A stretch of 64,000 nt of DNA, from the NCBI RefSeq assembly GCF_025628885.1, contig NZ_JAOTIF010000021.1, positions 62,001 to 126,000 of the forward strand. Reading direction: 5' to 3'. The position numbers were made by a program, and so were the translations under genes. The first letter of the stretch is position 1; the number at the start of each line of letters is the position of its first letter. This stretch comes from Paraflavisolibacter caeni (GTDB lineage: Bacteria; Bacteroidota; Bacteroidia; Chitinophagales; Chitinophagaceae). The notes under the pieces are model-generated. The model had not been told where the DNA came from and did no database searches. It was given only the letters and a program-made list of their open reading frames with translations. Below, one piece after another: positions 5,857 through 30,770 of this stretch.

Positions 5857-6138
5857 GCGGTAAAAGTAAGTCAGAACAATGATTTTGATCCATTATTTGA
5901 ACTCAATCAATCTTTCAGATCTTTCCCAAAATCTTTATGCGCCATATCTATCAATTCTCCAACTTCTCTCTGAAAACAGACTTCAAACTCTGGCAAACTC
6001 GCGCCTAACTTCCTTCCAAATCCATGTTCCGATAATTCATCTCTAGTTGCAGAAGTCTACCTATCCCAATTTTCCAGACACTCCCTTCCTTTGTCCCATT
6101 CGTCATTCCGAACATTTTCCCACCCATTTGCAGTGGTT
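5857..6138. other. Intergenic stretch before repeat array
   Basis: Together with the following repeat this is a 500-base gap between two leftward genes. The 282 bases read as pyrimidine-rich DNA on the plus strand with no open frame of note, no tRNA-like fold and no clear promoter motif. Confidence 0.5.
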
Positions 6139-6304
6139 TTATAGAGCCCTTATAGTAATCTTATAGAAAACTTACAGTAAAGTTATAGTAAACTTATAGT
6201 AGAGTTATAGTAAACATTAGCCGTACCTACTCCCTAGATACTCCATATATACTCCGTATCTACTCCGTACCTAAGGCGTATCTACCATATACTTACGGCG
6301 GGGC
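6139..6304. repeat. Degenerate 11-bp tandem array, element 1 (about 15 units)
   Basis: Seven 11-base units run from 6139 to 6215 (TTATAGAGCCC, TTATAGTAATC, TTATAGAAAAC, TTACAGTAAAG, TTATAGTAAAC, TTATAGTAGAG, TTATAGTAAAC). After one extra base, eight more run from 6217 to 6304 (for example TACTCCATATA, TACTCCGTATC, TACTCCGTACC). Read on the minus strand the second half has units starting TACGG or TATGG. The period is not a multiple of three, so this is not coding. A second element with the same period and a shared 12-mer lies at 28930-29094. Function unknown. Confidence 0.9.
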
Positions 6305-6356
6305 CCTACTATGCCCTTAACTCCCCACCAACTCCAACTTCCTTTGAAAACACCCA

Positions 6357-26849: not shown

Positions 26850-28709
26850 ATGAGAAAGCTTATTCTTTTATTTTTTTCCTATTTGGTTTTTGTATGGGCT
26901 AACGCTAATGAATATAAAGTTGATGGTATATATCCTTCCAATTGGTGGGTTGGCATGAAGAACCCTAAAGTGCAATTAATGGTTCATGGCTCCAATATTT
27001 CTGAAAACACATTTACGATTAATTATCCCGGGGTAAAGCTTGTAAAGGTCAATAAGGTTGAAAATCCTAACTATGTTTTTCTGGATTTGACAATTGCGCC
27101 TTTGGCTAAACCTGGACAATTGAAAATCCATATCAATGGTTTTAATGGAGATGGTGATATTTCATTTGAATTGAAACAGCGGCGAAAAGGCAAAGGAACA
27201 TTATATGCACAAGGTGTTACTTCTAACGATTTTATTTACCTGCTGATGCCTGATCGGTTTAGCAATGGCGATTATTCAAATGATAAAGTTCCTGGCATGA
27301 AAGATCAGTCGTTAAACCGTGATTCTTTGTATCACCGGCATGGGGGAGATTTGAAAGGTGTCATTAATCATCTTGATTATTTACAGGATTTGGGCGTTAC
27401 AACTCTTTGGATGACACCAGTTTTGGAAAATGATATGCCAAACAGGACAGAACATGGCTATGCTATTACTAATCATTATAAAGTAGACCCAAGGCTGGGT
27501 GGAAATGATGTTTATAAAAGATTAAGCGATGAACTACACAAACGAGGAATGAAACTTATCCAGGATGCTGTTTACAACCACACAGGACTTCAACATTTTT
27601 TTGTTCAGGATTTGCCTATGAAAGACTGGCTAAACCAGTGGCCTAAGTACACGAACACTACATATAAAGATCAGCCATTGATGGATAGTTATGCTTCAAT
27701 AAAAGATAGAGAAGTGATGAGCAATGGATGGTTTACACCACAAATGCCTGATCTGAATCAGAATAATCCCTACGTAGCTAATTTTTTAATTCAACATGCA
27801 ATCTGGAGTGTTGAAGAATTTGGTGTAGATGGTTGGCGTATTGATACTTACATCTATAATGACTTGCCTTTCATGAATCGATGCAATAAGGCTTTAATGG
27901 ATGAATATCCCAAAATAACCCTGTTTGGTGAAACCTGGGTACATGGCATGCTAGACCAGGCTTTTTTTACTCAGAACAACATGGGCAACATTCCATTTAA
28001 GAGTAATCTGCCTGGAGTAACCGATTTCCAAACCAATTTATATGGCATCAATCCAGCCTTGACTCAGAACTTTGGCTGGACGGAGGGGGTGAACAAACTT
28101 TATCAAACGCTGGCTAATGATTTCATATACGTTGACCCTATGAAGAATGTGACATTTTTGGATAATCATGATATGACACGTTTTTTGTCGCAAGTGGGAG
28201 AGGATATTGATAAATTAAAAATGGGAATTGGATGGTTGTTCACAACCCGTGGTATTCCCCAATTGTATTATGGAACTGAAATTTTAATGAAAGGAGTATC
28301 TAACCCAGATGGTTGGGTGCGTTTAGATTTCCAAGGTGGCTGGAAGGAAGATGCTCAAAATAAATTTACAAAGGAAGGAAGAACTGAGCAGGAAAACGAA
28401 GTGTTTAATTGGACTAAAACATTGGCCAATTTCCGTAAAAGGTCTTCTGCCTTAAAAACAGGGAAGCTGATGCAGTATGTTCCGGAAGATTGGGTATATA
28501 CCTATTTCCGTTATGATAACAATCAAACTGTGATGGTAATCATGAATACTGCAACAGAAGAGAAAACTATAGATGTCAGCAGGTTTTCTGAGCAAACAAA
28601 TGGTTTCCGAAAGGCTGTCAATGTAGTTACATCTTCTTCAAATGAATTTTCCAATATCAAATGGATAATACCAGCAAAGACACTCTGGGTATTAAATCTT
28701 GAAAAATAA
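26850..28709 (+). CDS. Secreted GH13 alpha-amylase/neopullulanase (SusA-like)
   Basis: Glycoside hydrolase cutting alpha-1,4-glucans outside the cytoplasm. I start at ATG 26850 (619 residues), followed by a signal peptide ending near WANANEY. An N-terminal beta domain with GIYPSNWWVGMKNPKVQLM is typical of Bacteroidota cyclomaltodextrinase-like enzymes. The catalytic barrel is complete: DAVYNHTG, nucleophile Asp332 in GWRIDTY, acid/base Glu361 in LFGETW and Asp441 in LDNHD. It starts about 60 bases after the transporter stop. The three-gene context (transporter, amylase, glycogen synthesis) suggests use of external starch. No SusC/SusD genes are present. Confidence 0.93.
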   Translation: MRKLILLFFSYLVFVWANANEYKVDGIYPSNWWVGMKNPKVQLMVHGSNISENTFTINYPGVKLVKVNKVENPNYVFLDLTIAPLAKPGQLKIHINGFNGDGDISFELKQRRKGKGTLYAQGVTSNDFIYLLMPDRFSNGDYSNDKVPGMKDQSLNRDSLYHRHGGDLKGVINHLDYLQDLGVTTLWMTPVLENDMPNRTEHGYAITNHYKVDPRLGGNDVYKRLSDELHKRGMKLIQDAVYNHTGLQHFFVQDLPMKDWLNQWPKYTNTTYKDQPLMDSYASIKDREVMSNGWFTPQMPDLNQNNPYVANFLIQHAIWSVEEFGVDGWRIDTYIYNDLPFMNRCNKALMDEYPKITLFGETWVHGMLDQAFFTQNNMGNIPFKSNLPGVTDFQTNLYGINPALTQNFGWTEGVNKLYQTLANDFIYVDPMKNVTFLDNHDMTRFLSQVGEDIDKLKMGIGWLFTTRGIPQLYYGTEILMKGVSNPDGWVRLDFQGGWKEDAQNKFTKEGRTEQENEVFNWTKTLANFRKRSSALKTGKLMQYVPEDWVYTYFRYDNNQTVMVIMNTATEEKTIDVSRFSEQTNGFRKAVNVVTSSSNEFSNIKWIIPAKTLWVLNLEK

Positions 28710-28929
28710 CCAGGATCTCGAATTTATCTGAACCTGGATTTGGGGGTTTGAGAGGAGATGACAGATGGCTAATGATAGAATGGATATTAGAAATTGGAGA
28801 TTAGGAGATTGGTGGTGTAAGGCTGGTTTTGTAACTTTAGGCACAGTTCCATTGACTCCATTTAGCCCTTTCAGGGCGTTCTGCCGATTGGTTGTTTTCC
28901 CCTTCTTGATGAGCATTTTCTGAATTTTT
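28710..28929. other. Intergenic stretch after the amylase gene
   Basis: First part of a 1290-base gap without a solid gene. An open frame on the minus strand here (74 codons) has an unnatural composition and no recognisable domain. I see no terminator-grade hairpin directly after the amylase stop. Confidence 0.4.
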
Positions 28930-29094
28930 ATCGAAGCATAGTCGAAAGATGGTCGAAGGATGGTCGAAGTAGCCTAGGCTTAGATACGGCTAATGTATAC
29001 CTAAAGTACGGTTTAAGTATGGGGAATGGAGGGATGCTGTTGGAATACTGTAGCCCTACTTTAGGTATACCGTATGTATACTGAATCTACGAAG
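28930..29094. repeat. Degenerate 11-bp tandem array, element 2 (15 units)
   Basis: Fifteen consecutive 11-base units run without a phase break from ATCGAAGCATA at 28930 to AATCTACGAAG ending at 29094. The first four are near-identical (GTCGAAAGATG, GTCGAAGGATG, GTCGAAGTAGC). The middle units start TA, for example TACGGCTAATG, TACGGTTTAAG and TATGGGGAATG. TACGGCTAATGT occurs exactly, in the same unit phase, on the minus strand of element 1. Within the array, 28995-29008 and 29057-29070 form a perfect 14-bp inverted repeat. Function unknown. Confidence 0.88.
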
Positions 29095-29664
29095 GATGTG
29101 TTTTTTCTGGTTGCTTTATTCATTTTCAGTCAATATTGATTATTATTTAAATGTTTTTGAAAAAGGGACCGGTTGGGAGTTCCTGTTGTCTTGAATTTTG
29201 TAAGAGTATAATTGTGTCCTTTTTTTGTAATCATGTAGTATAATTTATAGCGAGTGGTGAAGGTATAAATTCTGCAAATTGTACTATTTCATAGGTGGTA
29301 ATCCTACGAGTTGTTTCTGGTAAGATTTCTAGTGATTAGGGTTGGATTTCAGTAATTGCTGTATATGAAAATCGAGCAAAAGTGCAATTGCAGAGCTTGT
29401 TTTGGTTAATTATTTTTGTATTGAAGTTGATTGATGAATATCTCAATTATCCGTATCCAAAAGTCAAACCATTTTCGTAAGTAGTTATTTGAGAATCCAA
29501 TCCGAGAAAAGCCAAAAGTTTAATCCAATATCAGTCAACTTCTTTTTTCCATTTTCCATATTTAGCGAACCGTTTTTACATCCGTATCTGTATCCAGTCC
29601 TTGAAAACGAAGGCGTCCCTCTGTCCGATGAAAATTTAGAGGAAAAATTATTAATCGCCTGATA
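29095..29664. other. Long AT-rich intergenic stretch, possible gene remnant at its end
   Basis: No intact gene. The plus-strand frame 29438-29662 is open for 75 codons but lacks an ATG. Its end reads PVLENEGVPLSDENLEEKLL, which looks like real protein, and a perfect hairpin follows directly. It may be the tail of a decayed gene. I cannot name a family. Confidence 0.3.
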
Positions 29665-29704
29665 AACAAGAGGCTGACTCAAAAGTATGAGTCAGCCTCT
29701 TGTT
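29665..29704. terminator. Perfect 17-bp hairpin, loop AAAGTA
   Basis: Arms 29665-29681 and 29688-29704 pair perfectly (core GAGGCTGACTCA). The loop AAAGTA is identical to that of the hairpin at 16122-16161, and the stems differ by compensating changes. It follows no intact gene, only a possible remnant frame. Confidence 0.85.
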
Positions 29705-29999
29705 ATTCGGGTACCTGATGGAGTCTAGTACGCATTTAAGTGATTCTCAGGGGCTTCATTTACTTTTGATACGGCCTCCTTCTTATTTCTGGCAAGTGAT
29801 TAATGCTTGTTCAATTAGATGATTTTGAAAGCTTTGATATTCTTTAAGTGCCGTTTCTTTTTGATCCTTTCTATTGAGGAGAATCATATGTTTTTGAAAT
29901 TTGATTTGATTTTTTATACTATGATCGTCGTAAGTTTGGCGCTTTAATTCCCAAAATAGTTAAGGTAGACAGATTTTTATTGAAACGGAAAATCAAAAA
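29705..29999. promoter_or_regulatory. kduD upstream region with candidate promoter (29905-29938)
   Basis: TTTG at 29905-29908, a 22-base spacer and TAAGTTTG at 29931-29938 match both elements of the Bacteroidota consensus promoter at the accepted spacing. The -7 element lies 61 bases before the kduD ATG. The rest of the stretch holds no gene. Confidence 0.6.
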
Positions 30000-30770
30000 A
30001 TGAGTATACAGCGTTTATTTGACCTTTCAGGTAAAACAGCATTGGTCACCGGTTGTGCTCGTGGTATCGGTAAGGCAATGGCTGCTGCTCTGGCTGAAGC
30101 TGGGGCTGATATAATAGGGGTGTCATCAGGACTAGCAAGTTCGGGAAGTGAGGTCGAAAAAGAGGTTACTGCTTTTGGTAGAAAATTCACCGCCTATCAA
30201 TGTGATTTTAGTGACCGGAATGCCTTGTATGGATTTATTAAAAAGGCTAAAGAAGAGAATCCTCCTATTGATATTTTGATCAATAACGCTGGTATAATTA
30301 TGCGCAAGCCGGTGGAGGAGCATCCTGATGAATATTGGGACCAGGTGATTGCTGTAAATCTTGATGCACAGTTTGTCATTACCCGTGAAATTGGTAAAGA
30401 CATGTTGGTCAGGGGTTCTGGTAAAGTTATTTTTACCTGCTCGATGCTTTCATACCAGGGTGGAATCAATGTACCAGGATATACAGCAAGTAAGTCTGCC
30501 GTTGCAGGTCTTGTGAAAGCATTTGCAAATGAATGGGCTAGTCGTGGTATTAATGTCAATGGTATTGCACCGGGATATATAGAAACTGACAACACGCAAG
30601 CTTTACGTGAAGATCCTGAAAGGAAGCAGGCAATATTAAACAGGATACCTGCGGGACGTTGGGGCGCGCCGGAAGATTTTATAGGGCCAGTGGTTTTCTT
30701 GTGTTCAGAAGCCGGGAATTATGTAAACGGAACAATTTTAAATGTTGATGGGGGCTGGATGGCCCGATAA
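30000..30770 (+). CDS. kduD: 2-dehydro-3-deoxy-D-gluconate 5-dehydrogenase
   Basis: Short-chain dehydrogenase that reduces 2,5-diketo-3-deoxygluconate to 2-keto-3-deoxygluconate in breakdown of unsaturated uronates from pectin or glycosaminoglycans. 256 residues. The NAD-binding motif is TGCARGIG (residues 17-24), followed by NNAG and the catalytic Tyr161/Lys165 in GYTASKS. The N-terminal LFDLSGKTALVTG and the C-terminal NVDGGWMAR are typical of KduD. The gene is followed after 12 bases by kduI, the preceding enzyme of the same pathway, which supports the specific name over a general SDR. Confidence 0.93.
   Translation: MSIQRLFDLSGKTALVTGCARGIGKAMAAALAEAGADIIGVSSGLASSGSEVEKEVTAFGRKFTAYQCDFSDRNALYGFIKKAKEENPPIDILINNAGIIMRKPVEEHPDEYWDQVIAVNLDAQFVITREIGKDMLVRGSGKVIFTCSMLSYQGGINVPGYTASKSAVAGLVKAFANEWASRGINVNGIAPGYIETDNTQALREDPERKQAILNRIPAGRWGAPEDFIGPVVFLCSEAGNYVNGTILNVDGGWMAR

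Follow-up and report, generated by a model that had tools for sequence, protein, structure and literature searches.

Array 2, a row of 11-bp units at positions 28930 to 29094 of the window (by which we mean the whole stretch of 64,000 nucleotides that was analysed, from the genome of Paraflavisolibacter caeni), is part of a longer leader in which a promoter-like box and a 110-bp module, here called module A, precede the array, and this leader belongs to a multicopy gene. Comparison of the leader with its copies in this genome and with the upstream regions of homologous genes in other genera suggests, at what we regard as about an even chance, that the arrays are operator rows on which the adjacent gene's product, or a partner of this product, would bind side by side, and that they were copied around the chromosome as orphan leaders.

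As the first-pass annotation had described, array 2 is an unbroken array of fifteen in-register units on the plus strand (165 bp). Its units are, in order, ATCGAAGCATA, GTCGAAAGATG, GTCGAAGGATG, GTCGAAGTAGC, CTAGGCTTAGA, TACGGCTAATG and TATACCTAAAG, followed by further units up to the last one, AATCTACGAAG, after which the sequence, read from 28930, continues with GATG. Four units of array 2 (28930 to 28973, plus strand) are of the CGAAG type, which is common to other genera. Array 1, recognised from its self-match at a lag of 11 bp together with its matches elsewhere in the genome, lies at 6138 to 6291 on the minus strand, and its 14 units of 11 bp run from TATATGGTAGA through TACGGCTAATG and TTTACTATAAC to GGCTCTATAAA. 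When the lag-11 self-match was scored in segments of 132 bp, array 2 peaked at 80/132 (at 28938) and array 1 at 93/132 (at 6139), compared with a mean of 35.1 (SD 6.2) over the window and with 60/132 at the next-best place. TRF called just 3.5 copies in array 2 (28931 to 28969), because its units differ from one another. The 12-mer TACGGCTAATGT, which had been reported as shared and in phase, does begin a unit in both arrays, on opposite strands (28985 to 28996, plus; 6214 to 6225, minus), and both arrays occupy long gaps between co-directional genes (28710 to 29999, +/+, for array 2; 5857 to 6356, -/-, for array 1). The two arrays look like two parts of one composite, array 1 being of its 3' type, because at locus L028 module A, its array, a spacer and an array of the array-1 type stand in a row.

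The proposal that these arrays represent a dispersed repeat family was borne out, and neither outcome that the first-pass annotation had named as refuting it (absence of additional copies, a 12-mer shared by chance) was observed. The window belongs to contig C14 of the 7.01-Mb genome. In this genome the 12-mer was found at 14 places compared with 1 in the reversed control, which is not what chance would give, and seven of the eight places fetched outside the window sit in an 11-bp array, the exception being L008. BLAST searches of the genome returned 42 matches for the array-1 region and 60 for the array-2 region, each number including the query itself. In 800 kb of contig C1, a lag-11 self-match reaching 55/99 was found at 22 places, from which we extrapolate a total of about 190 arrays in the genome, whereas lags of 8, 9, 10, 12 and 13 gave none; lags of 14 and 22 gave 4 and 15 places, respectively. 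Predicted ORFs cover 88% of the sequence, and 21 of the 22 arrays lie outside them. None of the C1 arrays was found in a convergent gap, but just 8 of the 98 gaps of at least 300 bp are convergent, so that their absence from such gaps says little.

The array family is nearly private to the P. caeni genome. When array-2 DNA was compared with 57 other genomes, 2 of them yielded a single weak match apiece, and a pattern of paired CGAAGGAT units, with one mismatch allowed, occurs at 111 places here as against 7 in 17 genus-mates together, 3 of which carry it. In the genus-mate G007 (84% complete), the array L112 has CGAAGGAT units followed by TAYG units, that is, the same order of types in other letters; a search for copies of the associated gene described below detected none in this genome despite the array. 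The complete genome G015, of the same genus, also carries 11-bp arrays. For one protein compared, the closest relatives were a Flavisolibacter MAG (69%) and Segetibacter sp. (66%), which places the genome in Chitinophagaceae. Arrays of a 7-bp period were also seen, at 9 places in the 800 kb of C1 when scanned at lag 7 (L071 to L110; e.g., AACTCCAAACCCCTAACTCCAAAC), as well as in G012 (L134, L135) and G015.

Array length differs among copies mainly by whole 11-bp units. In the 22 of 31 copies whose array end was on a hand-written list of variants, lengths were exact multiples of 11 in 13 (165 to 242 bp), and the remaining nine left a remainder of 7 in three cases (128, 139 and 150 bp), of 8 in three, of 10 in two and of 5 in one. 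Such lengths, like the 7-bp arrays of the same genome, are what would be seen if the arrays were functionless and replication slippage had merely expanded 11-bp units in intergenic DNA. We consider this explanation very improbable, as slippage leaves unexplained both the absence of periods 8 to 10, 12 and 13 and the recurrence, in many genomes, of the same core and period at the same upstream place before one gene family.

The promoter-like box lies at 28809 to 28839 on the plus strand and consists of TTG (28809 to 28811), a spacer of 20 nucleotides and TAACTTTA (28832 to 28839). By its sequence it resembles a Bacteroidota -33/-7 promoter, for which the available portions of two reports give the consensus TAnnTTTG/TTTG (PMC7366714, PMC2483708), and it may function as one. 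Module A, a conserved leader segment without array units, extends from 28820 to 28929 on the plus strand, and at least 40 matches to it were found among the 60 array-2-type places. A genome scan for the box pattern, run one base off so that the module copies registered with 2 mismatches, hit 47 places, namely 32 module copies with the box, one of which has its TTG shifted by one base, and 15 unrelated places, compared with 23 in the reversed control. Array-2-type copies keep the order promoter-like box (TTG-N20-TAnCTTTA), module A, array. Their units likewise come as an ordered set of types, in keeping with the mosaic that had been noted in the window: repeats of GTCGAAGGATG are followed by CTAGGCTTAGG, TACGGCTGATG, TATACCTAAAG, TACGGCTTAGG, TATGGAGTAAG and so on, and the array often closes with a unit like TACGAAGGATG. 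The upstream neighbour of the module A copies was oriented '-' in 23 of 31 rows (one a duplicate), which we did not judge to be above baseline. Inspection of the 31 copies by eye revealed no shared terminal repeats, and the module A DNA pattern was not found in the GTDB genomes, a set that may not include the genome studied here. A hammerhead-like reading of module A was dropped because Rfam did not support it, and a series of overlapping mini-ORFs, with an ATGA stop/start every 11 nucleotides, was also rejected, many units (e.g., CGAAGGATATA) having no ATG.

Because the promoter-like box of the window copy stands ahead of the array, the array could act as RNA. Under this alternative, a transcribed leader would carry the 11-nucleotide units, which would either pair into an extended hairpin or be recognised by an RNA-binding protein, 11 nucleotides being one turn of an A-form helix. 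Beyond the box, which other module A copies also have upstream of the array, such a role is favoured by the predicted fold of the array 2 strand, more stable than dinucleotide shuffles (z = -2.7), in which the inverted pair of units TATACCTAAAG (28996 to 29006, plus strand) and CTTTAGGTATA (29059 to 29069, plus strand) is paired, and by inverted arms in some other genera. However, the fold was unremarkable when module A was included (z = -1.1, against mononucleotide shuffles), and a 10-bp spacing, found in some members described below, suits the B-DNA repeat. The position of promoter-like sequences in other loci speaks on both sides: the best -7-like box, which scores only modestly above shuffles (7.3 vs. 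6.5), is found 12 to 33 bp ahead of the start codon at 16 of the 28 loci, and relative to the recognised units it comes before them in 8 of 23 loci but after them, between array and gene, in 15. Taken together, we judge a function as RNA to be quite unlikely. An Rfam search of positions 28000 to 30000 gave no match near the gathering score. A terminator-like hairpin, GGCTGACTCA..TGAGTCAGCC, followed by T-rich DNA is present at 29667 to 29702, in the same gap as array 2; there, Rfam returned only sub-threshold microRNA matches.

The gene to which the leader belongs was recognised from loci at which arrays stand before it. Of 394 genomes of the family Chitinophagaceae, 15, from 10 of its 101 genera, contain a pattern of three CGAAG units at 11-bp spacing, and at L273, L275, L282, L285 and L289 the next gene, some 40 to 150 bp downstream, encodes one and the same small protein. 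At most other fetched CGAAG loci the next gene is a different one, and L277 is cut by a contig end. The small-protein gene is present in 65 of the 394 genomes overall as against 11 of the 15 with the CGAAG pattern. A strict pairing of gene and array is weakened by the remaining 4 of these 15 genomes and by the complete genome G015, in which arrays are present and the gene was not detected.

In P. caeni the gene has about 24 copies, in 98-residue and approximately 200-residue forms. Searches found 24 homologues with a relative's protein as query and 29 with the genome's own form, and 22 of these 29 matches extend over 158 or more of the 199 residues and are free of internal stops; for two of these 22 (C34 and C35) the C-terminal part falls in a second match, which suggests a frame change. 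Leader and gene are linked at 23 of the 24 gene loci, where CGAAGGAT is accompanied by a lag-11 stretch scoring 38/77 or more, the exception (L307) lying at a contig edge. At L044, module A, array and gene stand in a row, and at L294, which encodes the 98-residue form, a homologue of module A is followed by CGAAGG units and TACGG units, the latter stopping some 35 bp before the start codon. Among 21 comparable paralogues of the 22, dN/dS was 0.07 in the conserved domain (median dS 0.59), 0.41 in the tail and 0.21 overall; the gene copies are thus old and have been kept.

At neither array of the window was such a gene found. A tblastn search at an E value of 0.01 detected no fragment of the family protein beside array 1 or array 2, the sole match being a spurious ORF across module A that was itself among the queries, and both arrays are therefore regarded as orphan leaders. 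Many orphans, together with some 24 gene copies here and a single copy in each of the 2 genus-mates out of 17 that have the gene, would also be expected of a selfish chromosomal population resembling REPINs and RAYTs, in which the protein and host enzymes spread the arrays and the orphans are non-autonomous. Such a population would account for the multiplication of the gene in several other genomes (at least 8 copies in seven of them), for the long-term purifying selection on the gene and for the inverted arms in part of the arrays, which were seen, as rows inverted about a centre with at least 22 of 33 positions matched, in 19 of 87 upstream regions as against 2 of 180 controls. On the other hand, Pfam and NCBIfam gave no nuclease or transposase match for the adjacent protein, and the family was not found in phage and plasmid records searched with one 103-residue member, nor in viral contigs searched with this member or with alignment A2. 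In addition, identity to the nearest genomes does not exceed 73% in the neighbouring cyclomaltodextrinase, so that they are too distant for an empty-site comparison. A selfish population is thus, in our judgement, unlikely. In PHROGs there were only weak matches to single members, the strongest of them (7e-4) with an unknown-function family. One viral-contig match, L350, was discarded as a false positive, being part of a 717-residue ORF unlike the family.

Rows of 11 bp recur upstream of the gene in other genera. In a set of 30 loci, one per genome, in which L343 was kept in the count although its start is misplaced, 11 was the best of lags 8 to 20 within the 200 bp upstream of the gene in 24 loci as compared with 3 downstream, and an exact CGAAGGAT occurred within 300 bp upstream in 17. 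Sixty further copies were chosen mostly by score rank, and in the 55 of them with a clear start lag 11 was best upstream in 35 (downstream, 4 of 54). Over both sets, which amount to 90 non-independent copies drawn from 55 genomes, lag 11 was best in 59 of 85 upstream regions, 7 of 84 downstream regions and 40 of 411 random noncoding windows taken from eight related genomes. Among genomes with the short form of the protein, 37 of 43 have at least one copy with lag 11 as the best lag. The core AGGAT was found in 68 of 86 upstream regions compared with 111 of 298 control windows, which are mostly coding. Pairs of AGGAT are spaced by 11 bp (41 pairs), 22 bp (18), 10 bp (11) or 20 bp (7), with only 2 pairs at any other spacing between 5 and 24; the controls have 3 pairs in all, at 18, 21 and 23, and none at 10, 11, 20 or 22. 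Cores with a partner 11 bp away stand mostly in the contexts CGAAGGAT (36), CCCAGGAT (9), CCTAGGAT (7), CGGAGGAT (6) and CGTAGGAT (3), whose common core is CNNAGGAT. The sequence of the unit varies between genera, and its position before the gene is kept. At L279 (G144) we observed long inverted 11-bp arrays, in which CCTTCGT.. and CCTAGGT.. units face eight CGAAGGAT units in a row.

Outside Chitinophagaceae, eight loci were fetched, seven of them with a clear start; lag 11 is best in L381 and ties in L384, and neither holds in the other five. L381 (G797, from another family of the class), which encodes a distant homologue, has six 11-bp units of a different sequence (..CACAAC) about 180 to 250 bp upstream, the one clear 11-bp row among these seven loci. 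L382, a short-type member outside Chitinophagaceae, has no 11-bp row.

The short members of the family, of about 97 residues, are mostly strongly positively charged. Those tried gave no Pfam or NCBIfam family above the cut-off, no relative in the PDB and no recognised DNA-binding domain. Longer members of other genomes were sorted by motif into three C-terminal types. In the winged-helix type, HTH_DeoR scored above the Pfam cut-off in L346 and below it in L345, and in four other members it was at the cut-off in one, weaker in two and absent from one. The one beta-type member scanned had no Pfam match. In the nucleotidyltransferase type, L457 matched NTP_transf_2 at 4e-5; both L457 and L458 have the small domain followed by a nucleotidyltransferase-like domain such as some antitoxins have, and their upstream 11-bp rows are partly inverted. 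No receiver family was matched in the adjacent protein, and a winged helix was found in the fused subset only.

The rows were compared by protein form in the 90 copies, of which 8 have no usable start and one, L320, was classed apart. Among the 59 short members, lag 11 was best in 45 and phased AGGAT pairs were present in 31; the corresponding numbers were 6 and 6 for the 11 winged-helix members, 2 and 1 for the 2 nucleotidyltransferase members, and 3 and 0 for the 9 beta-type members. The 28 of 59 short members lacking a phased AGGAT pair weaken the reading that we prefer, described below. All 11 pairs spaced by 10 bp come from five loci of the winged-helix type, and a single genus accounts for four of these loci. 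Genome G366 contains both spacings, lag 10 being best for its winged-helix copy L412 and lag 11 for its short copies L348 and L449. That the form of the protein strictly sets the spacing was nevertheless rejected, as lag 11 is best in six winged-helix members, lag 10 in four and lag 19 in one.

This loose correspondence bears on another explanation, namely that a different, host-wide regulator of the OmpR/PhoB type binds the arrays and simply counts the gene among its targets. ArcA sites likewise consist of direct repeats with 11-bp spacing, arrays also precede genes unrelated to this one and occur in genomes that lack it, and the spacing tracks the form of the adjacent protein uncleanly, all of which would be expected of such a regulator. 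It accounts less well for a unit sequence that shifts by genus while the place before the gene stays, for the 10-bp row of L412 beside the 11-bp rows of L348 and L449 in one genome, and for beta-type members whose upstream regions have no phased pairs. We hold this explanation to be rather unlikely.

In the reading that we prefer, binding by the adjacent gene's product or its partner, the usual form in relatives would be a short row of CNNAGGAT sites, about one helical turn apart, near the promoter of a gene for a small, mostly basic protein. The product, alone or with a partner, would occupy neighbouring sites of such a row along a single face of the helix, and this binding would control the protein's own gene. 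The sites would lie 11 bp and sometimes 10 bp apart, and each of these distances is about one turn of B-DNA; the observed spacings of 10 and 11 bp and their doubles fit this prediction of side-by-side binding on one face. The first-pass annotation had also suggested a binding platform; the conserved 11-bp period, the CNNAGGAT core and the upstream place make a platform likelier, and binding itself is a prediction from sequence. In P. caeni both have multiplied, the gene to about 24 copies and the leader, by extrapolation, to nearly 200 arrays, of which many lack a gene; arrays grow and shrink mainly by whole 11-bp units, and array 2 with module A and the promoter-like box would be one orphan copy of the upstream region. 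A more far-reaching version, which we put forward only tentatively and think less probable than binding near the gene, is a self-reading gene-array system of Chitinophagaceae, not described before, in which the small proteins, by themselves or as fusions with a winged helix or nucleotidyltransferase, would read CNNAGGAT rows set one helical turn apart, and in P. caeni about two dozen variants with nearly 200 combinatorial arrays would make up a dispersed nucleoid or regulatory network.

In their way of working, the arrays appear most like the multi-site operators of OmpR/PhoB-type regulators, and as a population they recall REPINs and RAYTs. According to the accessible parts of the reports, ArcA sites contain 2 to 5 direct repeats 11 bp apart (PMC3798270), and the boxes of Mycobacterium tuberculosis PhoP combine a 7-bp motif with a 4-bp spacer (PMC4832192). 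The arrays share with the operators of this family (ArcA, PhoB, PhoP) direct repeats that are 11 bp apart from centre to centre. Unlike those operators, they are tied to an unrelated small-protein gene family with no response regulator implicated, reach 15 or more units in this genome, exist as dispersed orphans with a fixed 110-bp module, have the core CNNAGGAT and are in some cases inverted or spaced by 10 bp. In REPIN/RAYT populations, as here, relatives flank one type of gene. REPINs are described, in the part of the source available to us, as dispersed, intergenic, non-coding repeats that are maintained over long times (PMC8049555), and the arrays resemble them in being dispersed, intergenic, non-coding and numerous. 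They differ from REPIN/RAYT systems in that the adjacent protein has no Y1/HUH transposase match in Pfam or NCBIfam, the gene has many copies and the unit is an 11-mer direct repeat rather than a short REP palindrome. NIMEs and BIMEs are mosaic, modular intergenic repeats of longer, partly palindromic units; the arrays are mosaic too, but made of phase-locked 11-mers. Heptamer direct repeats of TAACTGA occur in Beggiatoaceae, Cyanobacteria and some Bacteroidetes, where they are abundant and often lie just upstream of genes, and the arrays are similar to them in abundance, shortness of the repeat and sporadic taxonomic spread, as far as the available text of that report goes (PMC4679880). The heptamers, however, have a 7-bp period and one sequence, whereas the arrays have a period of 11 and another sequence; the same portion of the report mentions no associated gene family (PMC4679880), and the arrays have one. 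Neither the arrays nor the gene family were found described in the literature searched, whose coverage was limited, and there is a real chance that together they constitute a new kind of system.

If the proposed binding is right, an uncharacterised protein family would gain a concrete, testable ligand, and a seemingly junk repeat family would be linked to a protein family. Units that differ between genera while keeping the helical phase would then offer a natural experiment on the evolution of binding specificity and spacing, and the regulatory DNA of one gene would have populated a bacterial chromosome with no transposase in sight.
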